A DNA stretch of 20,109 nt from a virus. Positions 10,205-20,109 of the stretch are shown here, in pieces; the stretch's first letter is position 1, and every line of letters starts with the position of its first letter. Below the pieces are notes generated by a model that ran no database searches, had not been told where the DNA came from, and was given only the letters and a program-made list of their open reading frames with translations. A program made the translations under genes and the position numbers. The stretch spans positions 1 through 20,109 of IMG/VR virus record IMGVR_UViG_3300007554_000034. The stretch is one strand, 5' to 3'.

Positions 10205-10994
10205 TAGTTACAAATTTATATTAAGTGATTTACCACAAGTTATTGAGTTACCAGTTGAACTCAAGTGGGATTTTTATGGTCGTGACGAAACTATTGATGA
10301 ATATCAAGAAGAAGTTGTTAACGAGATAATTGGTAATGGTTATGACTTTGAAGTACTCAGATTTACCCATAAAGAGTATGGTCAAGAACAAACCAAACTA
10401 CAATATGATTTTTATTTTTATAGTGGTAATACGAATGATGTTAACACATCAACACCGCTTAATTGGGTATGTAGTTATTTACCTGAAGGATTCTTATCGA
10501 CCGAAGTATACTATTACAGACCATCTTTTACAAAATCATTCTTTAAACTCGACTTTTACGATTCGCCAAGTGGGGTGTCACAGACTAATTACTTCACCGT
10601 GATTTTACCCGTTCAACAAGGGTTAACAGAAACCGTTAGTATATCAACAGCCTTACCTTCAGTACAAATTAAAAAACCATCAATGAATTTGGATTTTGTT
10701 GGTGATTCAGAAGGGTTTTATTTGTATTGGTTAAGAAATCCTCAGTTTTTGGATATTAACACTTTCTATATGACAGCCAAATTTTTTGATGCTAGATTAG
10801 GTGTTTTTGTTAAAATGATGAACACTTCACAAGGTTCATTACCTGATAAATTTAACTTTATCCCTGAGCAAAAATTTTATTACAAAGTTGTTTTGGACAG
10901 ACAGACCAAAACTTATGAAATATTTGACGTAGTTACAAACCAAAGAATTGGTAATGGAACACCGATAAAATGGTACGAATATGTTAACCCATAA
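10197..10994 (+). CDS. Structural protein of unknown family in the baseplate operon
   Basis: 265 residues if it starts at the GTG at 10197 (reads NNSYKFILSDLPQVIELPVE), overlapping the upstream stop in GTGAATAA. A TTG at 10188 would give 268 residues. No ATG is available near the upstream stop, so the start is non-ATG in either case. The protein is rich in Tyr, Phe and Asp and looks all-beta (for example FFKLDFYDS, FTVILPVQQG, FYLYWLRNPQ), without any motif I recognise. It ends at 10994 in TAATG, sharing one base with the start of the next gene, so the two are translationally coupled. The function is unknown. A wedge or peripheral baseplate role is inferred only from neighbours. Confidence 0.75.
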   Translation: MNNSYKFILSDLPQVIELPVELKWDFYGRDETIDEYQEEVVNEIIGNGYDFEVLRFTHKEYGQEQTKLQYDFYFYSGNTNDVNTSTPLNWVCSYLPEGFLSTEVYYYRPSFTKSFFKLDFYDSPSGVSQTNYFTVILPVQQGLTETVSISTALPSVQIKKPSMNLDFVGDSEGFYLYWLRNPQFLDINTFYMTAKFFDARLGVFVKMMNTSQGSLPDKFNFIPEQKFYYKVVLDRQTKTYEIFDVVTNQRIGNGTPIKWYEYVNP

Positions 10995-12175
10995 TGGACA
11001 ATAGACAATATCATATTAGAATATCACCCGAGGTAATTAAGAATGACATATTCCCTGTAAATACTTACGCTGAATATGCGGATACGGAGTTAATTCCGTA
11101 TTGTTGTGATATTATTACCCGAGAAGTTATTAAATATGTAACAGGAACCACTTACGTTTATTCATCGATGACTGAGATATTATCAGGTGGTACTGATGGA
11201 ACATCTCTTTTAACTGGTTTAACTGTACCAATTCTTTTAACTGAAAACACAATTGATTTGGGTTATTATAGTGTGTTTGATGGTATGATTGAACAGCAAG
11301 AAACAATGACAAACTTTTTGTTTTCAGCAACCACTTCTTACCCATATACTTATTATTTTTATAACACATCTGATACTGAGTTTAAAAAATATTTGAGTTT
11401 TTCAAATTACTACGTTGATTGGGGTGATGGTAGTCCTATTGAAACTATTACAAGTGGAACACCTATTAATTATAGTCACACTTATACGATGGACGGTGAA
11501 TTTACAATTACTATGTCAGGTATGAGTCCTTGGGGGTCAAACATTATTCAAAAAACAATTACAACACCATACATTAATGTACCAATTTTAAATCCACAAG
11601 GAACTGCGTATTTTGTACCTGCGGGTGGTAGTTGGTCGGGAACGCCATTAGATTACAATTATATTTTTAGTGGAGACCAAGATTGCGATGTTTATTTAAA
11701 CTCAAGTTACAATTATACAACAGTACCTTTCCCTGTGACAGGGTATACTAATTCAACAATAAATGACCTCGAAGTTTATGGTAAAAAAGATGTTCTTTGG
11801 GGTGGTAAATATAAGATAGGGGTACCAGTAACTGGTACTTCAGGTAATGTAGGAACCGTTTGGGGTGAATTTAATGACGGTTTATATACCGCATATACTA
11901 TTAACAATGTTGACTACTATGATTATAATGATGGTAGAACTGTTTTTGTCGTTATGTCATCAGGAATGACACCTGACATGATGATATGTTCAGCAATTAC
12001 AAAAAATGAGGTATTATTAAACGTAATTGATGAAGCAGAAGTTCAAACTAATGTATTTATTGAGAGAGGTAAAGTATCTGCATTAGAAAGGGTTGAACGA
12101 CTTGGTGAAATTAACAATATCGGAGACCTTGAAAAATATGGTTACGGATTCTTTAACATAATAAAAATAGCTTAA
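10994..12175 (+). CDS. Structural protein with a PKD-like Ig domain
   Basis: 393 residues. Around residues 125-190 is a PKD-type beta-sandwich signature: YVDWGDGSPIE (140-150), then SHTYTMDGEFTITMSG (161-176), matching the family pattern 'W.fGDGs ... HtYt..G.ytvt.t'. PKD domains are typical of extracellular and surface-binding proteins and usually mediate protein or glycan contacts. The N-terminal ~120 residues and the rest are beta-prone and unrecognised. The C-terminus (residues about 355-393) is different, a charged helix followed by LGEINNIGDLEKYGYGFFNI, which could be an attachment element to the baseplate. It starts with ATG overlapping the upstream TAA by one base, and its own stop is one base from the next ATG. 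Its role as a peripheral baseplate or short fibre component is inferred. Confidence 0.78.
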   Translation: MDNRQYHIRISPEVIKNDIFPVNTYAEYADTELIPYCCDIITREVIKYVTGTTYVYSSMTEILSGGTDGTSLLTGLTVPILLTENTIDLGYYSVFDGMIEQQETMTNFLFSATTSYPYTYYFYNTSDTEFKKYLSFSNYYVDWGDGSPIETITSGTPINYSHTYTMDGEFTITMSGMSPWGSNIIQKTITTPYINVPILNPQGTAYFVPAGGSWSGTPLDYNYIFSGDQDCDVYLNSSYNYTTVPFPVTGYTNSTINDLEVYGKKDVLWGGKYKIGVPVTGTSGNVGTVWGEFNDGLYTAYTINNVDYYDYNDGRTVFVVMSSGMTPDMMICSAITKNEVLLNVIDEAEVQTNVFIERGKVSALERVERLGEINNIGDLEKYGYGFFNIIKIA

Positions 12176-12176
12176 C

Positions 12177-13082
12177 ATGGCAACAGGAACATATGGAACG
12201 ATAAGACCGGCTGACGTATCACCGGAAGATGTGGAGATAATTTTAAATTACACTCCATCAAGAGATGAGACTGATAACTTTGTCTTAACTAAATTGGACG
12301 CCGCGGCGATTCTAAAGCCTTATTTCAATAACTCAAGTACAGGTGGTAATCCTGTTGAAATTTTGGGTGGGTTGTATAATTTAAAGTTACCCGCAGACCA
12401 ATTCAATAAACTAGGTATCTACACCCTATACATTAGACCCGTTCAAATCAGAACTTCAATAACTGATTGTGGTGTTTTAGCGGCACTTCCTAACGTTAGA
12501 GGTTTGGTTATTGATTTAAATAACGTACCTACTGAATATAGAAATAAATTTGTTAATCAAGGTTTAGTCGGATTTAGAATTGAATACTTAAACTCTGATG
12601 GTACAAAAATACCTAATTTTTTCAGATTAATCACATCATCTTTCTTTTGTGAACCGGTAGTTCAAAATTTAACTAATACATCACAGAAAGCTGTTAGGTA
12701 TCGATACACAGATAATAACACTAATTTAGTTTTTTGTACATTATCACCATCATCCGCACCAACAAACAAACCGAATGCGGTACCTTTTATCGGACAACCA
12801 AACCAAGATGTTCTAATTTCAAATACGTACTTTAACCCAATCACTTTAGATATTGAAGTTGCAGAACACGACTTCTCAACACTAGCAATTGCGTTGTACG
12901 GAAATCAAACAAAATCAATTGACGATGGTATCTACACTATGTACGATACTAATAACAATATTTACAGACAATACAACTTGTATGAAATTCGTGACCAATT
13001 TAATGAATTGTTATACGAAGTTAGACAAGATAGAGGTAGTAATATTGATTATAGCAAAAACTTCTCAAATATCACACAATAA
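12177..13082 (+). CDS. Structural protein of unknown family, baseplate operon
   Basis: 301 residues, with ATG one base after the upstream stop. The N-terminus MATGTYGTIRPADVSPEDVE is followed by a probable beta-domain (FNKLGIYTLYIRPVQIRTSI around 85-104; VRGLVIDLNNVPTEYRN around 109-125). The C-terminal ~60 residues become charged and likely helical (YNLYEIRDQFNELLYEVRQD) and may be an oligomerisation or docking element. No signal peptide, membrane span or enzyme motif is visible. It ends in TAATG shared with the 1006-aa gene, implying coupled expression and suggesting that the products assemble together. Function unknown. The structural role is inferred from context. Confidence 0.78.
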   Translation: MATGTYGTIRPADVSPEDVEIILNYTPSRDETDNFVLTKLDAAAILKPYFNNSSTGGNPVEILGGLYNLKLPADQFNKLGIYTLYIRPVQIRTSITDCGVLAALPNVRGLVIDLNNVPTEYRNKFVNQGLVGFRIEYLNSDGTKIPNFFRLITSSFFCEPVVQNLTNTSQKAVRYRYTDNNTNLVFCTLSPSSAPTNKPNAVPFIGQPNQDVLISNTYFNPITLDIEVAEHDFSTLAIALYGNQTKSIDDGIYTMYDTNNNIYRQYNLYEIRDQFNELLYEVRQDRGSNIDYSKNFSNITQ

Positions 13083-16000
13083 TGGCGAATTTAAAATATA
13101 CTTGTCCACCACAATCGGCTACAGGAGCAGGGACTTTTTCAGATAATCTGGTTGGTTTTCAGTTAGTTGCTGGGGGTGGTTTGACGCAAGGTAATTTTCA
13201 ATTCACATCATCTATAAATGAAAAAGAAAATCGTAATTTTAGTGTTGGTGCTTTTTCACAACCAATAAATTTAGATGGTTTAGGTATTAATAACGTTTAT
13301 CAATCTAAAACCATTTTTGAAAAGAATTATAAGGTTTACCCTAACTACGATTTAAGTCAAATAACAAACTTTACTCAGTATGGTTCGTTGGTGAAAAGGT
13401 TATCAACATCAGTTGAAACTATCATCGCTAAGTTCCCTGCGGGTTTAGAGTCTGCGTTTATGGGTGTTAACTATGTTACTGGTCAAACAGCATTTAATGT
13501 TTCTTATAACTCAACTAGCGATACAACAACTTTTAGTTTAGATGCCACAAGAATTAGAAACCCATTTGATATTGATTTTAGTGTTAACGCAACTCTTAAT
13601 TTATCTTTAAGAGAAATCCAAGTGTCTCCATTAAGAGATATGACACTACAATATAGTAAGTATTCCCTATACTATAGTGGTAATGGATATTCTGTTGTTA
13701 ATATTGTACCAACAACAACAAATACTTTTGGTGATTTAATCATTACAGTTCAAGGAAATCCATTCTCAGGTGAAACTAATATTACTGAAACTATAATTGT
13801 TAGACCTAACGATTATGAAGTTAATCGTGTCTTTAATGAAGACTTTGACCAAGTTGAAAACTTTTTATTAAATAGAAATACATCACCGATTTATACTGCA
13901 ACATTTGAGGTACCTAATCAAACTGAAGATGGACAATACTATACCGACTATAACTCAATAACATGGCCTTTAAATGGTCTTTGGAATTTAGATATAGTTA
14001 CAAACGCATTTACAAATTATCTTCAAAAACTAGATGAGGTTGGTTTGTTCTTTGACCAATACGTAACAAATTTAATATCGAGATTTTTTATTACTGACGC
14101 GTTTAAAGAGTTTGATACTCAAACACAAAAAATTGAAAAGGTATTACAGATTTACGGTAGAAGTTTTGACGAAACTAAAAAGTTCATCGGGGCGTTAGCC
14201 TTTATGAACTCAGTTAATTATAATGTTGGTAATGATATTCCATCACAGTTATTAAAAAATTTGGCTCAAACATTAGGTTGGAATATCAATATATCACCAA
14301 TAACTAATGATGACTTTTTAAGTTCTGTATTTGGTCAAAAAAATGTTGATAAACCACAATTTACCGGTATATCTACCGAAGCAACTCCTGATGAATTAAA
14401 TTATCAATATTACAGAACATTAATACTTAATTCAGCTTACCTATTCAAATCAAAAGGAACAAGAAAATCTATAGAGGTTTTACTACGTTTGATTGGTGCA
14501 CCTGAAGCTCTTGTTGAGTTTAATGAGTATGTATATTTAGCGGACCAAAAAATAAATATGATTGAGTTTGATACTCAATTTGCATCTATATCAGGTGGTA
14601 CATATATACAACAGACACCAACATTAGAGGATGGTAATACGTTCACCATTTTTGGTGTCCAATATACAGGATTCACTACTTCAGAAACTATTTACGATGT
14701 AAACGTGTTTAGAGATGAATACCCTGTTGATGAAGACGGGTACCCAACCGCACCATTAAATACTGAAGGATTTTTCTTCCAAATAGGAAGTGGTTGGTTC
14801 GAACAAACACCTGAACACAGAGCTCCCACACAAGCCGACCCGAATATTAACGTATTCACAGGTAATAACCCTAATTATCAAACGGTATTACAACCATATA
14901 GTTATGGTCAAGAATACCTTAATAGATTTAGATATTTCCCATATATGGACATGGGTTATACCTTAACACCTGTTATTGATAATAATAAAAGTTGGGCCGA
15001 CTACGAAACTGGGTTAAGAACTAACTTTGATGGGGGATTAAATTCACGTTATTTGGTAGATGATGATAGATTAGTGTTAAATGTAAAGAATGTTGATTTA
15101 TTTATGAATCCTGCACAAGGTTTAGCCTACGACGTTTGGTTCATGTCAAGACAATACAATTACCCAATTCCTGACCAAGGATTACTCTATGTCCCACCTA
15201 CTTATTGTGACCCAACACCAACATCTGACTATCCTGTTAGAGGTGGTGTGGATTGGACGGAGATTAATCCACAACCTAAGAGAAAGACCTTCTTCGAATT
15301 TGCTCAGACTTTTTGGTTAAACATGATTAATGTTAGAAACAGACAATTTGCGACCGATGGTAAAACTGGTGGATACCCAACATTAGCATCAATCTATTGG
15401 AAATACTTAGAGTCCGAACAAATGGCTGGCATCCAAAACAACAACTTCACATATCAAACAATGATGGATTATGTGAATGGTATTGGCGACTATTGGATTA
15501 GATTGGTTGAACAGATGATACCCGCAACAACTATTTGGAATACAGGTACACGTTTAGAAAACTCAATATTCCACAGACAAAAATTTGTTTGGAGAAGACA
15601 AGAAGGATGTCAATTAGTTCCTGTACCATGTAAACCATGTGAGGTAACATCAAATATATTTAGATATGATTGTCCTATTGAACAAGTTGAGTGTGGTATT
15701 TTCCCATATTCAGAAAATCCACAACTAACAAGTTTCGGTGGTGTTTTAGGACAAGTTATGAACAACTATCTAAACCTTAATGGTTACACTTTAGGTAGTT
15801 GTGATTTAAATTCTTTAACAACTAAATGGTATGTTGATTTAAGATTAAATGGGGAACCAATAATTCAAAATAATTTCTTTAATGGTGTTGGTTATTTAGA
15901 CCCTATTTTAAGTTCACCAACTAATGAAGAATGGTTAAACGCATTAGTTAGTTCGTTAAATGATTTAAAAAATTATGGATATGATTACTATTTAACTACT

Positions 16001-16102
16001 GAAGATACTATTGTGATTTATAATGTAATATGTTCCGAATCAGAAGTGGGAACCAACTTTAAGTTAAATGTTGGTATAAACTTTAATATTTTGTGTAGTT
16101 AA
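13082..16102 (+). CDS. Large baseplate wedge protein with P2 gpI / T4 gp7-like core and a C-terminal module shared with the next gene
   Basis: 1006 residues, close in size to T4 gp7 (1032). The N-terminal ~280 residues are beta-rich. Residues about 315-430 are helical (FFDQYVTNLISRFFITDAF; LLKNLAQTLGWNI at 390-402). Residues 441-490 carry the pattern of P2 tail protein I: a helix YQYYRTLILNSAYLFKSKGT (441-460), then RKSIEVLLRLIGAP. The KGT-helix-G motif is typical of gpI, the counterpart of T4 gp7 that pairs with gp6/gpJ in the wedge. Aromatic- and Pro-rich sequence follows, then a Cys-rich patch near 847-874 (CQLVPVPCKPC). The last ~100 residues (905-1006) resemble residues about 610-711 of the next protein. 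Start and stop share bases with both neighbours (TAATG). The gp7/gpI call is motif-based and not certain. Confidence 0.85.
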   Translation: MANLKYTCPPQSATGAGTFSDNLVGFQLVAGGGLTQGNFQFTSSINEKENRNFSVGAFSQPINLDGLGINNVYQSKTIFEKNYKVYPNYDLSQITNFTQYGSLVKRLSTSVETIIAKFPAGLESAFMGVNYVTGQTAFNVSYNSTSDTTTFSLDATRIRNPFDIDFSVNATLNLSLREIQVSPLRDMTLQYSKYSLYYSGNGYSVVNIVPTTTNTFGDLIITVQGNPFSGETNITETIIVRPNDYEVNRVFNEDFDQVENFLLNRNTSPIYTATFEVPNQTEDGQYYTDYNSITWPLNGLWNLDIVTNAFTNYLQKLDEVGLFFDQYVTNLISRFFITDAFKEFDTQTQKIEKVLQIYGRSFDETKKFIGALAFMNSVNYNVGNDIPSQLLKNLAQTLGWNINISPITNDDFLSSVFGQKNVDKPQFTGISTEATPDELNYQYYRTLILNSAYLFKSKGTRKSIEVLLRLIGAPEALVEFNEYVYLADQKINMIEFDTQFASISGGTYIQQTPTLEDGNTFTIFGVQYTGFTTSETIYDVNVFRDEYPVDEDGYPTAPLNTEGFFFQIGSGWFEQTPEHRAPTQADPNINVFTGNNPNYQTVLQPYSYGQEYLNRFRYFPYMDMGYTLTPVIDNNKSWADYETGLRTNFDGGLNSRYLVDDDRLVLNVKNVDLFMNPAQGLAYDVWFMSRQYNYPIPDQGLLYVPPTYCDPTPTSDYPVRGGVDWTEINPQPKRKTFFEFAQTFWLNMINVRNRQFATDGKTGGYPTLASIYWKYLESEQMAGIQNNNFTYQTMMDYVNGIGDYWIRLVEQMIPATTIWNTGTRLENSIFHRQKFVWRRQEGCQLVPVPCKPCEVTSNIFRYDCPIEQVECGIFPYSENPQLTSFGGVLGQVMNNYLNLNGYTLGSCDLNSLTTKWYVDLRLNGEPIIQNNFFNGVGYLDPILSSPTNEEWLNALVSSLNDLKNYGYDYYLTTEDTIVIYNVICSESEVGTNFKLNVGINFNILCS

Positions 16103-18372
16103 TGTGTACTCTATTATATAACTTATCTGTTAGTGGTGATTGTACCAATAGTGGTTTAGGTGCCTTTACCGTAGATATTACGGGTTCAGCTCCCGACTAC
16201 TCAATTCAATGGGTAAGTCCCTCGTCAGGAACCACCGCATTGGGTTCTGGTGTAACAACATACACAATAGAAAATCTATCTGCAGGTACATACACTTTTA
16301 ACATTATAGATAGTTGTGAACCAGTTAACACAATTCAAACAGTTAACGTGGCGATATCAAGCGGAACTTGTGTTAATATTATTGGACAAAATGATACTAC
16401 TTGTGGATTAGATAATGGTAGTATAAGTGCTGCCACAACAAACTTTTATGGTAATACCGAGTTTTATCTTTATGAGAACACATTAGGTTATATTACTTCA
16501 GGTACTTCATTTAGTAACACCTATGAATTTGTTAATATTTTAGCGCCTGGTGTTTATTATGTTGCTGCCAATGATGGTGGTGGATGTACAGGTAAGTCTG
16601 AGACCACAATCATCAAATCAACACCACAATTTGACTATGGTTTATATATTGTAAATGATGCGGGATGTGCGGTTGAATCAGGTAAAATTTATGTTACAGG
16701 TCAGACATGTAATGCACCTTACACATATTTGTGGTTTAATGGTAGTACCGAATCATATGTGACAGGATTGACTGAAGGAACTTATAGTGTTACGGTAACT
16801 GACTCTTACGGATGTTCTTTAACTAAGTCAGGTACTATTGTAAAAGTCGACTCAGTTGGGTTAGGTTCGTTAGTTGTTGAACAACCTGATTGTTTTGAAT
16901 CTAACGGTTCTTTAACTATTACATTAACAGGTGGTACGGCTCCTTTTTATTATTCAGGTTCTAATGGGACTACCGCAGTTTCATTCTCCAATGACTACAC
17001 CTTTAGTGGTTTAGGTGCGGGTATCTTCGCGTATTCAGTAACGGATGCTGGACTATGTAAGTTTAGTGGTCAAACGTCAGTACTAACTCCTGGTGGTTTT
17101 ACATTAGTTAGTGTTGGTACAACAAATACTACTTGTGGTAATACAGGAGGGTCAATTAACCCCATTTCAATATACGGAGGTAGTGGTAATTACACTTACA
17201 CATTACTTTATCCTGATGGACACACCCAAGTTGATAATACTTCAAGTACGACTTGGCAGTTTGATAATTTATCTGCCGGAACATATACTTTAACAATAAC
17301 TGATGGTGTTTGTACATTTACATCAGATTATGAGATTTTTAATAACTCGCCTATTCAGGTTGATGTTAATACAACAGGTACTACTTGTAATCAAGCGAAC
17401 GGAGCGATTGAAATTACTTTAACAGGTGGTACAGGCCCATATACATATCAGATAAATGGTCAAATATATGGACCAACTAACGATACTGGTTATACGTTTA
17501 CTAATTTAGTTGGTGGTGTTTATTCAGCGTCTTTAACCGACAGTACAGGTTGTGTTATCACTGAATCGGTATTGGTACAACCTTCATTTTTACCCGACTT
17601 TGTATTGGTTGGACAAAACACAACTAACGGTGTTAATGGTTCTATTAATGCTTATATTACTAATGGTGAACCTGAATTTACTTGGACTTGGAGTAATAAT
17701 GTTAACGGTCAAACGGGTTTAACGGTAACTAACTTATCAGCCGGAACTTATTCACTTACGGTAACCGATTCATTTGGGTGTACTAAAACTAAAACACAAA
17801 CAATTACGGGTCCTAACACTGTTGGTAATTACCTTACTTATAATATTTGTAACCAAGATTTCCAAAATAGTGGGTTGGTCATTAAGAAAGGTTTGAGGGA
17901 AATGTTGTGGGAAGGATTCCATGACCTAACATCAGATGATTATAATTGTGTTCTTAACCAATCTATTTTTGAAGTTACTGCGATTGTTGGTACCACTTAT
18001 ATGGGACTACCATTTTTTACAGGGTCAACACTAAGTGATTACCCTTCTGACAATGTGTATTATGACGCAATTGATTCGTTATTAACATCATTTAATGGGA
18101 TTGGTTCTGTAAGTATAGATGCCGAAACAAATACAATTAAAATATATTCAGATTGTAATTCTGAAATATCATTGTCGGATACCAATATTGAACTTAATTT
18201 AAAGATTAACTATGATATTTCTTGTGTTGCTTGTAACGTGACCCCAACACCAACACCTTCATTAGGATGTAATATCGTATATGACGCTGATATTCAATGT
18301 GGAGTGACACCAACACCAACGGTTACAACAACACCAACTAGAACTCCAACTCCAACACCGTCAATAGGTTAA
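16102..18372 (+). CDS. SprB-like multi-repeat adhesin/tail fibre protein with Pro-Thr-rich C-terminus
   Basis: 756 residues. Residues 1-570 form seven Ig-like repeats of about 75-86 residues (1-86, 87-171, 172-247, 248-329, 330-412, 413-492, 493-570) of the SprB type: 'C...nGsi.v...gG..pytY.wsnG.....i.nLsaGtYtvtVtDs.GC', for example YVTGLTEGTYSVTVTDSYGC. SprB repeats are known from gliding adhesins of Bacteroidota. Paired cysteines flank most repeats. Residues about 580-711 form a different domain whose last 100 residues resemble the C-terminus of the preceding baseplate protein. The tail (714-756) is Pro/Thr-rich in two blocks split by a short Cys-containing segment. There is no signal peptide, as expected for a virion protein. 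It is coupled to the upstream gene by TAATG. The likely role is a host-contacting fibre or decoration. Host-derived acquisition of the repeats is plausible but unproven. Confidence 0.87.
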   Translation: MCTLLYNLSVSGDCTNSGLGAFTVDITGSAPDYSIQWVSPSSGTTALGSGVTTYTIENLSAGTYTFNIIDSCEPVNTIQTVNVAISSGTCVNIIGQNDTTCGLDNGSISAATTNFYGNTEFYLYENTLGYITSGTSFSNTYEFVNILAPGVYYVAANDGGGCTGKSETTIIKSTPQFDYGLYIVNDAGCAVESGKIYVTGQTCNAPYTYLWFNGSTESYVTGLTEGTYSVTVTDSYGCSLTKSGTIVKVDSVGLGSLVVEQPDCFESNGSLTITLTGGTAPFYYSGSNGTTAVSFSNDYTFSGLGAGIFAYSVTDAGLCKFSGQTSVLTPGGFTLVSVGTTNTTCGNTGGSINPISIYGGSGNYTYTLLYPDGHTQVDNTSSTTWQFDNLSAGTYTLTITDGVCTFTSDYEIFNNSPIQVDVNTTGTTCNQANGAIEITLTGGTGPYTYQINGQIYGPTNDTGYTFTNLVGGVYSASLTDSTGCVITESVLVQPSFLPDFVLVGQNTTNGVNGSINAYITNGEPEFTWTWSNNVNGQTGLTVTNLSAGTYSLTVTDSFGCTKTKTQTITGPNTVGNYLTYNICNQDFQNSGLVIKKGLREMLWEGFHDLTSDDYNCVLNQSIFEVTAIVGTTYMGLPFFTGSTLSDYPSDNVYYDAIDSLLTSFNGIGSVSIDAETNTIKIYSDCNSEISLSDTNIELNLKINYDISCVACNVTPTPTPSLGCNIVYDADIQCGVTPTPTVTTTPTRTPTPTPSIG
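18241..18363 (+). repeat. Low-complexity ACACCA-type repeats coding for the Thr-Pro tail
   Basis: Two blocks, 18241-18261 and 18307-18363, of imperfect Thr-Pro codon pairs (mainly ACACCA, ACTCCA, ACACCT) encode alternating Thr-Pro in the last 43 residues of the 756-aa protein. Synonymous codons vary, so selection for the amino acid pattern is more likely than recent slippage alone. The same codon style recurs at 19936-20109. Confidence 0.75.
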
Positions 18373-18551
18373 GACTTTTTTTCCGATTCTTTTTTACCAA
18401 TACCTTCGTAAAGTCTCATCAATTTAAGTGACTCGTTGTAGTTTTTTTCTAGACGCTCAAGCTCCTTTTCATTGACACCTTTTTCACACGCCAATTCATA
18501 AGCTTCTTGTGATTCTAAAACAATTCTTGTTATCGTCTTCAATAGTTTCAT
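18369..18551 (-). CDS. Small charged helical protein, hypothetical
   Basis: 60 residues on the minus strand, the only plausible minus-strand gene here. It fills a gap with no + strand coding. The sequence (MKLLKTITRIVLESQEAYEL at the start) is amphipathic, Lys/Glu-rich and probably all alpha-helical, with possible coiled-coil potential in the ELERLEKNYNESLKL segment and no membrane span. Its stop codon overlaps the stop of the 756-aa gene tail-to-tail by three bases, leaving no room for a terminator between them. TATTTAT lies five bases upstream of its ATG on the minus strand. It could be a small regulatory or moron-type protein, or a spurious frame. The composition looks protein-like, so I favour a real gene. 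Function unknown. Confidence 0.55.
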   Translation of the reverse strand: MKLLKTITRIVLESQEAYELACEKGVNEKELERLEKNYNESLKLMRLYEGIGKKESEKKS

Positions 18552-18555
18552 ATAA

Positions 18556-18563
18556 TATAAATA
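18556..18563 (+). promoter_or_regulatory. T4 late-type TATAAATA element in the divergent gap
   Basis: An exact TATAAATA on the + strand lies 53 bases upstream of the glycosyltransferase ATG (18617), inside the 65-base divergent gap with the small minus-strand gene. It matches the T4 late promoter consensus. It is short and A/T-only in an AT-rich genome, so chance is possible. Its reverse complement lies right before the minus-strand start. Confidence 0.35.
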
Positions 18564-18616
18564 TGTCCTAAAACATCATTTATTAAGTTAAGACCTTCAT
18601 TATATTTAATGTAATT

Positions 18617-19591
18617 ATGGATAAATTATTATTTGTTAGTTCTCAACCTGATGTGCCTTATTTTCATTGGCAAGTTAGAGTTTATATTCATAATTTTATT
18701 GATAAAGGGATTAACCCTAATAATATTCATGTGTTATTTGGTATTGTTAACGGGGCGAAAGGGCCGAGTGAAGAATCTTTATCACTTAAAGAACTTGGTG
18801 TGAATATTCATCATTATTTGGATAATCGAGAACACAAATATTATATACCTAATATCAAACCATTTTTAGTTTATCAGTGGTTAAAAGAAAACCCTCAATA
18901 TGGGGAGTGTTTCTTTTTACATGATTCGGATATTATTTTTAGAGAATTACCCGATTTTAATAAGATGTTGAACGATAAAATTTGTTATTTATCGGACACC
19001 GTAGGGTACATAGGACACAATTACATAATGGATTGTTGTAGTAGATATGAGGCTAAACACCCTACCTCTGATAAAGGACAATTGTTAAAAGAAATGTGTG
19101 AGGTTGTTGGTGTAACACCTGAGTGTATTGAGTGTAACCAAGAAAATTCTGGAGGTGGTCAGTATATTATTAAAAATACTGATTGGATGATTTGGGAGAA
19201 AATATATATGGATTGTGTTCCACTATACGACCAAATGTTGGATTATCAAAAAAGATTCCCAATAAACCCTGGACAAATTCAATTTTGGACCGCTGAGATG
19301 TGGTCTTTGTTATGGAATTTATGGTATTTTGGTAAAGAAACTAAAGTTACTAAAGATTTAGATTTTTCTTGGGCGACCGATGATATTAGGGTTTATGAAC
19401 AGAGACCAATACTCCACATGGCAGGTGTAACTGATAACCTAAAAACCAAAAAATTCTTCAAAGGAGATTTTATAAATGTTAACCCTTTAGATAAATTAAG
19501 GGAGGATGAAACCTTTTTTGATTATATAGAAGAAAGTAGCTCAACAAAAAAATATGTTGAACTGATGAAGGAAATAGTTAAAAAACAATAA
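18617..19591 (+). CDS. Glycosyltransferase-like protein with DxD motif, resembling peptidyl Hyp/Ser O-glycosyltransferases
   Basis: 324 residues. A GT-A-type nucleotide-sugar glycosyltransferase is suggested by an N-terminal beta-strand (DKLLFVSSQ), a central FFLHDSDIIFRELPDF with a DxD (D103, D105) that would bind metal and the sugar nucleotide, then ICYLSDTVGYIGHNYI, a Gly-rich acceptor-side segment NSGGGQYIIKNTDW (177-190), FWTAEMWSLLW (223-233) and ILHMAG (265-270). The order of DxD, then 'W..EM', then 'ILH.' reminds me of hydroxyproline O-arabinosyltransferase / peptidyl-serine galactosyltransferase-type enzymes, but I could not test this. There is no membrane span or signal peptide, so it would act in the host cytoplasm. 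It lies between two genes whose products end in Pro/Thr-rich tails, suggesting virion-protein O-glycosylation (inference). Alternatives are modification of host surface sugars or of DNA. The start is an ATG with an A/T leader and no Shine-Dalgarno sequence. Confidence 0.72.
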   Translation: MDKLLFVSSQPDVPYFHWQVRVYIHNFIDKGINPNNIHVLFGIVNGAKGPSEESLSLKELGVNIHHYLDNREHKYYIPNIKPFLVYQWLKENPQYGECFFLHDSDIIFRELPDFNKMLNDKICYLSDTVGYIGHNYIMDCCSRYEAKHPTSDKGQLLKEMCEVVGVTPECIECNQENSGGGQYIIKNTDWMIWEKIYMDCVPLYDQMLDYQKRFPINPGQIQFWTAEMWSLLWNLWYFGKETKVTKDLDFSWATDDIRVYEQRPILHMAGVTDNLKTKKFFKGDFINVNPLDKLREDETFFDYIEESSSTKKYVELMKEIVKKQ

Positions 19592-19606
19592 TCCGATTAT
19601 TTATAG

Positions 19607-19615
19607 TATAAACTA
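19607..19615 (+). promoter_or_regulatory. Candidate late promoter (TATAAACTA)
   Basis: TATAAACTA is identical to 3309-3317 and lies five bases before the ATG at 19621, in the 29-base gap after the glycosyltransferase gene. A TATTTAT at 19598-19604 lies beside it, as also happens at 3316-3322. The distance to the ATG would give an almost leaderless transcript, so it may equally be part of a translation-start context. Confidence 0.3.
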
Positions 19616-19620
19616 ATTAA

Positions 19621-20109
19621 ATGGGAGACACGGTTCAGAACGAATGTAATGTGATTACCATATTCCCTATGGTAATTGAGTGTATGGGTATTAACCCATC
19701 AACACCTACCGCTAGTGATGGACAAATGAGTGTTTCAATTACGGGAGGCACACCACCATATACCATAATTTGGAGTAATGGTAACGTTTCACCAGCAATT
19801 AATAATTTAAGTGTTGGTGAATATTCTGTAACGGTTATTGATTATTATGGTGATTTCAGTGCAGAAACTTCATGTACATTAAGTACCGTACTTGATTGTG
19901 ATTTTGGTGTCTACGTTCAAAACTTTACCGTTGAACCAACACCTACACCAACTTTAACTCAAACATTAACCGCAACGGCAACATTAACACCAACACCTAC
20001 ACCAACATTGACGGCAACACCAGGAATTACACCAACAATGACACCAACAAGGACGGTAACCCCAACATTAACACGAACACTAACCCCAACATTAACAAGA
20101 ACATTGACA
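19621..20109 (+). CDS. SprB-like repeat protein with alternating-Thr tail, 3'-truncated by window edge
   Basis: The frame is open from the ATG at 19621 to the last base (163 codons, no stop), so the gene continues outside the window. Residues about 18-90 form one SprB-like Ig repeat: SDGQMSVSITGGTPPYTIIW, then NNLSVGEYSVTVIDYYG, followed by a Cys. It lacks the classical C-terminal GC. A short linker ending at about residue 105 leads into a low-complexity region (106 onward) in which nearly every second residue is Thr, the others being Pro, Leu, Ala, Arg, Met, Val or Gln. There is no signal peptide. The domain plus Thr/Pro tail parallels the 756-aa protein upstream of the glycosyltransferase, so this is probably a second fibre or decoration protein and a possible second substrate of that enzyme (inference). 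Confidence 0.85.
   Translation, partial: MGDTVQNECNVITIFPMVIECMGINPSTPTASDGQMSVSITGGTPPYTIIWSNGNVSPAINNLSVGEYSVTVIDYYGDFSAETSCTLSTVLDCDFGVYVQNFTVEPTPTPTLTQTLTATATLTPTPTPTLTATPGITPTMTPTRTVTPTLTRTLTPTLTRTLT
19936..20109 (+). repeat. Imperfect hexanucleotide-type repeat coding for an (X-Thr)n tail
   Basis: The stretch is built from imperfect 6-base units (ACACCA, ACATTA, ACACCT, ACAAGA and similar), so that Thr appears at almost every second codon through the end of the window. Higher-order duplication is visible near the end, where 'CCAACATTAACA' followed by 'CGAACACTAAC' and then 'CCAACATTAACA' followed by 'AGAACATTGAC' form a roughly 24-base unit. The array runs off the edge, so its full length is unknown. 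Confidence 0.85.

Follow-up and report, generated by a model that had tools for sequence, protein, structure and literature searches.

In Gram-positive bacteria, serine-rich-repeat adhesins are glycosylated by cytoplasmic enzymes that decorate these low-complexity, Ser/Thr-rich surface proteins, in systems that combine several enzymes with an export route of their own. Phages also modify proteins of their own: in the mycobacteriophages Che8, Corndog and Myrna, phage-encoded glycosyltransferases add glycans to capsid and tail-tube proteins of the same phage (Freeman et al. 2023, as related in PMC12619734, PMC11600133, PMC11256854 and PMC12363180). According to PMC12619734 the glycans of these virions are located at C-termini, and glycosylation of the virion changes its recognition by antibodies (PMC11600133, PMC12363180). 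Here we analysed a 20.1-kb virus record, IMG/VR record IMGVR_UViG_3300007554_000034 (positions 1 to 20,109, the whole of which is called the window), in which a gene for a protein of 324 amino acids (aa) lies between two genes for SprB-like adhesins. A previous interpretation of the same DNA (the sequence-only reading) had proposed that this protein is a glycosyltransferase which decorates the Thr/Pro-rich tails of its two neighbours. That pairing of enzyme and acceptor gained support well beyond the window, from co-occurrence with tailed major tail proteins (MTPs), from gene adjacency and from a modelled glycosyltransferase A-type (GT-A) fold. Judged on sequence and structure prediction, the gene very probably represents a phage-encoded, single-enzyme system for the O-glycosylation of Thr-rich stretches in proteins on the surface of the phage's own virion.

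Co-occurrence of the enzyme with poly-Thr tails

The 324-aa protein belongs to the protein family phrog_4417, and the association of this family with Thr-rich tails was assessed by a matched comparison, for which relatives of three MTP families were gathered irrespective of the enzyme. For every locus, presence of the enzyme was determined by profile search, and a tail was recorded when the last 30 residues of the MTP held at least five consecutive Thr. Across all three families, a poly-Thr tail was present in 30/30 loci with the enzyme versus 0/97 without it. Eleven loci with bIL285-type MTPs had both and 31 neither; the corresponding counts were 3 and 11 for phiFL1A-type MTPs and 16 and 55 for Bacillaceae-type MTPs, with 0 mixed loci in each family. 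Following dereplication at 90% identity, the tail was found in 18/18 loci with the enzyme versus 0/62 without, again with no exceptions (both/neither: 1/10 for the bIL285 type, 2/7 for the phiFL1A type and 15/45 for the Bacillaceae type, the last with a Fisher p of 1.9e-14). In a tree of Bacillaceae-type MTPs, built from sequences from which the last 30 residues had been removed, 8 changes in enzyme state were matched by 8 changes in tail state. This tree yielded 8 independent pairs when all branches of the best tree were used, and 4 on well-supported branches, where 4/4 agreed, a number too small for a sign test to reach significance.

The neighbourhood of the enzyme gene was surveyed in 57 enzyme clusters formed at 70% identity. 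A Thr-rich gene was directly adjacent in 43/57 clusters, at most three genes away in 49/57 and present within the locus in 52/57, against a background of 50/622 genes (8%) further away and 23/2046 (1.1%) in phage loci without the enzyme. A survey of co-occurrence in related phages had been suggested by the sequence-only reading, and both this count and the MTP comparison came out in its favour.

The same arrangement was seen in individual isolates. The enzyme gene lies directly 3' of the MTP gene in phiFL1A and 1706, directly 3' of the major capsid protein (MCP) gene in bIL285 and 9183, close to the MTP/MCP genes in TPWB06, and, in Bacchae, after a gene whose small product carries the annotation 'major tail protein'. 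In phiFL1A the MTP ends in ...NGTTTTTSTTTTTTSSTTTTTTTQASSK and the MCP in ...TTTTTKPTTTTTKPTTTTTTTQG; the MTP of phage 1706 ends in ...GVTTTTTTTTTTHHD and that of TPWB06 in ...GTTTTTTTTTP, and R3.3 has two proteins with Thr-run ends. The MCP of bIL285, encoded directly 5' of the enzyme gene, is without a Thr tail, and the tail is instead carried by the MTP (...SKTTTTTTTTTRHD), seven genes away. Phage 9183 has a weaker tail (TTTDPVTTTSTTRQ). In about 30 species of Bacillota (of Lentibacillus, Oceanobacillus, Lacticaseibacillus, Gracilibacillus, Virgibacillus, Halobacillus, Trichococcus, Clostridium and other genera), prophage loci have Thr tails on proteins of ~390, ~210 and ~105 aa, which are probably the MCP, the MTP and a small head-region protein, respectively. 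In the Chryseobacterium phage MA9V-3, two genes just upstream contain tracts with Thr/Ser runs, and in other lineages Thr runs or TTVKPTTVAP repeats were present in the gene that immediately precedes that of the enzyme.

Fold, family and conserved residues of the enzyme

The window protein matched the phrog_4417 profile with an E of 1.6e-71 (residues 6-320 on 3-291 of 293), a family annotated in PHROGs as 'unknown function'. Profile scans of the window protein and 13 divergent members returned no credible Pfam or NCBIfam family. In the search of family profiles, which the sequence-only reading had suggested, it was phrog_4417 that gave a full-length match. Weak Pfam matches (LcrG and others) were dismissed as chance, being below the cut-offs and inconsistent across members. 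Matches to transcription activator-like (TAL) effectors among Protein Data Bank sequences were likewise rejected as an artefact of one short stretch aligning with many repeats (single domains at most 5.6 bits), and they vanished when a profile was used (E 0.15).

An AlphaFold model (AF2), computed from an alignment of 45 family members, had a predicted local distance difference test score (pLDDT) of 96.5 and a predicted template modelling score (pTM) of 0.93. The top Foldseek matches of this model were WbbM, UGGT and glycogenin (E about 1e-6 to 1e-7), with GTA/GTB also among the top fold matches. By VIA-align, glycogenin was nearest (Z 15.5 over 226 residues, 3.3 A), and further neighbours were LgtC (Z 14.2), UGGT (14.2) and GlyE (13.7), the last of which is an enzyme of serine-rich-repeat adhesin glycosylation. 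As modelled, the 324-aa protein is a GT-A-fold glycosyltransferase, and the GT-A fold anticipated by the sequence-only reading was recovered with confidence. The likeness it had drawn to plant hydroxyproline/serine O-glycosyltransferases found no supporting match, the fold neighbours being GT8/GT24-type enzymes; the protein had no credible Pfam match, and hydroxyproline-type enzymes were absent from the fold matches listed, an absence that does not exclude a relationship. A distant structural relative (22% identity, template modelling score about 0.7) was seen in BFVD entry Q5ULR5, Orf49 of the Lactobacillus myophage LP65.

D103-S104-D105 and E227-M228...I265-L266-H267, both pointed out in the sequence-only reading, are indeed present in the protein. 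D103, D105, M228 and H267 were invariant in the 45-sequence alignment, and the DxD columns were likewise invariant among the 13 divergent members; Lys282 was invariant too, the members compared sharing as little as 26% identity. Conservation of the DxD motif, His267 and Lys282 across divergent members suggests an active, metal-dependent enzyme, and the fold neighbours make a retaining mechanism plausible. No match to PF01501, the Pfam profile for CAZy family GT8, was obtained by hmmscan for the window protein or the 13 members, and comparison with a profile of five GT8 proteins by hhalign gave a probability of 1.7%. In place of an HxxGxxKPW-type GT8 motif, the protein has H267-x-A-G270 ... K282-G, with other spacing and no KPW, a triplet invariant in the GT8 proteins compared. 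By sequence, then, the enzyme is outside GT8.

The locus in the window and its relatives

The enzyme gene occupies 18617..19591 on the plus strand, with the DxD motif at residues 103-105. On its left, also on the plus strand, lies the gene for a 756-aa SprB-repeat adhesin-like protein (16102..18372), a proposed acceptor with three SprB stretches (PF13573, E 8.9e-18, 64.1 bits, above the cut-off). The protein ends in ...VTPTPTVTTTPTRTPTPTPSIG, a true protein end, and its Thr/Pro-rich C-terminal segment (18232..18369, plus strand; 13 Thr and 9 Pro in the last 48 residues) is the segment proposed to be glycosylated. On the right, the 5' part of a second SprB-like gene (19621..20109, plus strand; 163 aa, open at the window end) encodes another proposed acceptor, with one SprB stretch at 26.2 bits versus the Pfam cut-off of 28 and a Thr/Pro-rich stalk (19933..20109, plus strand; 28 Thr and 11 Pro in 59 residues) that is cut by the window end. 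The sequence-only reading had taken both flanking proteins to be SprB-like and to end in Thr/Pro-rich tails. This holds for the left one; the SprB match of the right one is below the cut-off, and in the closest relatives (L002, L003 and L004) its tract lies inside the protein as a stalk, with a small domain after it at the C-terminus. The summed Pro and Thr content peaked at 16 per 24 residues in the left neighbour and 18 in the right, compared with 9/24 in the remainder of each protein; 2000 shuffles of each whole protein gave mean peaks of 10.4 and 12.9, and the best shuffle reached 17 and 18 (left and right, respectively).

Thr/Pro-rich tracts were also found in genes around the enzyme gene in other loci of the window's clade. 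Their content was 49 versus 19 per 1000 aa in loci with and without the enzyme (about 2.5-fold, p 0.004), a comparison that includes six loci without the enzyme, one of them perhaps ending too early, and a p that is not corrected for kinship. Because nearly all usable loci of this clade have the enzyme and many records end early, the decisive comparison is that made in Bacillota MTPs. Among close relatives (L047, L048, L061-L064 and other loci of the clade), genes around the enzyme gene differ strongly in length and domain content; the left neighbour, for example, has 756 aa in the window, 854 in L004, 895 in L003 and 1097 in L005. Variation of this kind would be expected if adhesin tips are exchanged rapidly and are joined through Thr/Pro stalks.

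Between the left SprB gene and the enzyme gene, a small open reading frame of 60 aa lies on the minus strand (18369-18551; MKLLKTITRIVLESQEAYELACEKGV...). It is kept at ~70-80% identity in many related phage loci, with 37 database matches beyond the window's own, and is probably a real small gene because of this conservation. Baseplate-wedge proteins (phrog_261/43, phrog_219) are encoded further left in the window. No isolate phage match was found at the protein level for the window's 1006-aa neighbour, or at the DNA level for the stretch 10994-16102. The SprB repeats suggest that the host of the window phage belongs to the Bacteroidota.

Distribution of the family

Relatives of the enzyme are encoded in 254 candidate stretches of IMG/VR, the best 80 of which (64-86% identity) were taken for analysis. 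Homologues with 31-38% identity were present in 74 sequenced isolates, namely phages of Lactobacillus, Enterococcus, Staphylococcus and Lactococcus and one phage each of Chryseobacterium and Arcanobacterium. When genomes of bacterial species were scanned, 38 loci were found, most of them in Bacillota and amid virion genes. In Chitinophaga solisilvae (L283:10001-12937) and a Dysgonomonas metagenome-assembled genome (L282:2289-4398), cellular homologues are encoded directly upstream of LanC-like lanthionine synthetase genes. These are probably loci for the modification of peptides similar to ribosomally synthesised and post-translationally modified peptides, with a glycosyltransferase. Such neighbours fit a polypeptide-modifying origin of the enzyme, which may share its origin with the glycosyltransferases of Bacteroidota LanC-type peptide-modification loci. 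Separately, viral proteins with C-terminal Thr runs were observed in four loci without the enzyme (L291, L309, L314 and L357), where the runs could be served by a different glycosyltransferase or have another purpose.

Discussion

Host periplasmic O-glycosylation lies out of reach of phage proteins that are assembled in the cytoplasm, and for this reason, we infer, a phage would bring its own enzyme. A soluble, metal-dependent GT-A enzyme would be produced in the infected cell and would move a sugar from a nucleotide sugar to the hydroxyls of Thr, and perhaps of Ser, in the host cytoplasm. Its acceptors would be exposed, flexible, low-complexity Thr-rich segments of virion proteins, modified before or during assembly. 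In the window phage these would be the Thr/Pro stalks and tails of the SprB-like adhesins encoded downstream of the baseplate genes, and in phages of Bacillota and other hosts the poly-Thr C-terminal tails of the MTP, the MCP and the small ~105-aa protein. The whole system would then consist of one enzyme and a portable Thr-rich tag, the outcome being a sugar-coated stalk or brush on the tail tube, capsid or adhesin. Such a glycan brush might be stiff, protease-resistant or shielding, and might tune binding to the host or to surfaces. What the analysis demonstrates is the fold, the conserved catalytic-type residues, the gene context and the strict co-occurrence of enzyme and poly-Thr tail in three MTP families, whereas the activity of the enzyme, the use of Thr as acceptor, the sugar donor, the linkage and the benefit are inferred. 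A wider view, in which phrog_4417 is a widespread one-enzyme O-glycosylation system that places a mucin-like sugar brush on almost any virion surface protein bearing the portable tag (capsid, tail tube or adhesin), in phages of at least Bacillota and Bacteroidota and in one Actinomycetota isolate, strikes us as evenly balanced between true and false.

Several observations weigh against O-glycosylation of Thr-rich virion segments as the enzyme's role. When viral loci were picked only for a Thr8 run, the enzyme was found within the locus in 12/76, many of the viral records so selected being short; a search of whole records lifted the count from 7 to 10 among the first 47 such loci. Poly-Thr alone is therefore not specific to the enzyme, and Thr runs occur with other partners or with none. 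The divergent members L153, L282 and L283 have no Thr-rich neighbour. Within the window's own clade, five relatives that gave no sign of the enzyme (their records span 56-144 kb, with completeness not established) still have (TP)n stalks, though shorter ones. Such stalks can thus exist without the enzyme or use another one, and the pairing of enzyme and stalk is therefore looser in this clade.

These shorter stalks also speak for an explanation in which virion proteins are glycosylated but the Thr/Pro stalks of the window's clade are plain spacers, the true acceptor lying elsewhere, in the SprB domains or in another structural protein; so does the (TP)n-like rather than poly-Thr character of the tracts in this clade. 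However, the tracts surround the enzyme gene and are longer when the enzyme is present, and the mixed TTVKPTTVAP repeats encoded directly upstream of the enzyme in other lineages imply that an acceptor need not be pure poly-Thr. We regard the spacer explanation as unlikely. Still less probable, in our judgement, is that the Thr-rich tail is a docking site or an unrelated cassette-mate, while the enzyme acts on a different residue of that protein or on a molecule of the host. Passive linkage is conceivable, given that the enzyme gene usually adjoins the tailed gene, but it leaves the repeated coincident gain and loss unexplained; moreover, tails occur on several non-homologous proteins (MCP, MTP, the small head-region protein and adhesins), and some tailed genes are separated by several others from the enzyme gene of their phage.

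Phage glycosyltransferases that alter the host surface or glycosylate phage DNA are well known (cited in PMC12619734), and an enzyme of this kind might act on teichoic acid, lipopolysaccharide or capsule, blocking superinfection or converting serotype, or on the DNA of the phage. Yet in every annotated isolate examined the enzyme gene lies inside the virion structural module, with neither membrane partners nor DNA-modification genes annotated beside it, and such roles leave the linkage to Thr-rich tails unexplained. On this gene context and tail linkage, host-surface and DNA modification were set aside as very improbable, the least probable of the alternatives considered. O-glycosylation of Thr-rich virion segments by the phage's own enzyme is the reading that we retain, and we propose virion O-glycosylation as the function of the unnamed family phrog_4417. 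If this is true, the acceptor tag, being readable in the sequence, could allow glycosylated virion proteins to be predicted from genome data, and the enzyme and its tag would give protein engineers a compact system for O-glycosylation in the cytoplasm. The family reaches well-studied phages, namely bIL285 of Lactococcus lactis IL1403, Lactococcus phage 1706 and Enterococcus phiFL1A.

The sequence-only reading had also regarded a dedicated phage enzyme-acceptor pair as new. That a phage glycosylates its own virion was already known (PMC12619734, PMC11600133, PMC12363180); it is the enzyme family and the portable Thr tag that look new, although a prior description is possible. In a literature search, mostly outside subscription journals, nothing relevant turned up on poly-Thr or Thr-rich virion proteins, and neither poly-Thr tags nor a virion glycosyltransferase role for phrog_4417 was found described.

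Compared with the mycobacteriophage systems, the likeness is that phage-encoded glycosyltransferases modify, or here would modify, the phage's own capsid and tail proteins. The Che8 enzymes (gp108-110) are GT2/GT25 by Pfam, whereas the window enzyme belongs to phrog_4417, and gp108-110 did not match a profile of this family (hmmsearch E 0.18 or worse with all filters off). In Che8 the MCP and MTP are without a Thr-rich tail, and the three enzyme genes are remote from those for structural proteins; here one gene stands beside its presumed acceptor. With GT8/GT24-type enzymes (glycogenin, LgtC, UGGT and GlyE) the window enzyme shares the fold (Z 13.5-15.5), the DxD motif and a late conserved His, and it differs from them in lacking a PF01501 sequence match and the KPW triplet. 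By contrast with the several enzymes and dedicated export route of the serine-rich-repeat adhesin systems, the system proposed here would need a single phage gene and would act on virions assembled intracellularly.

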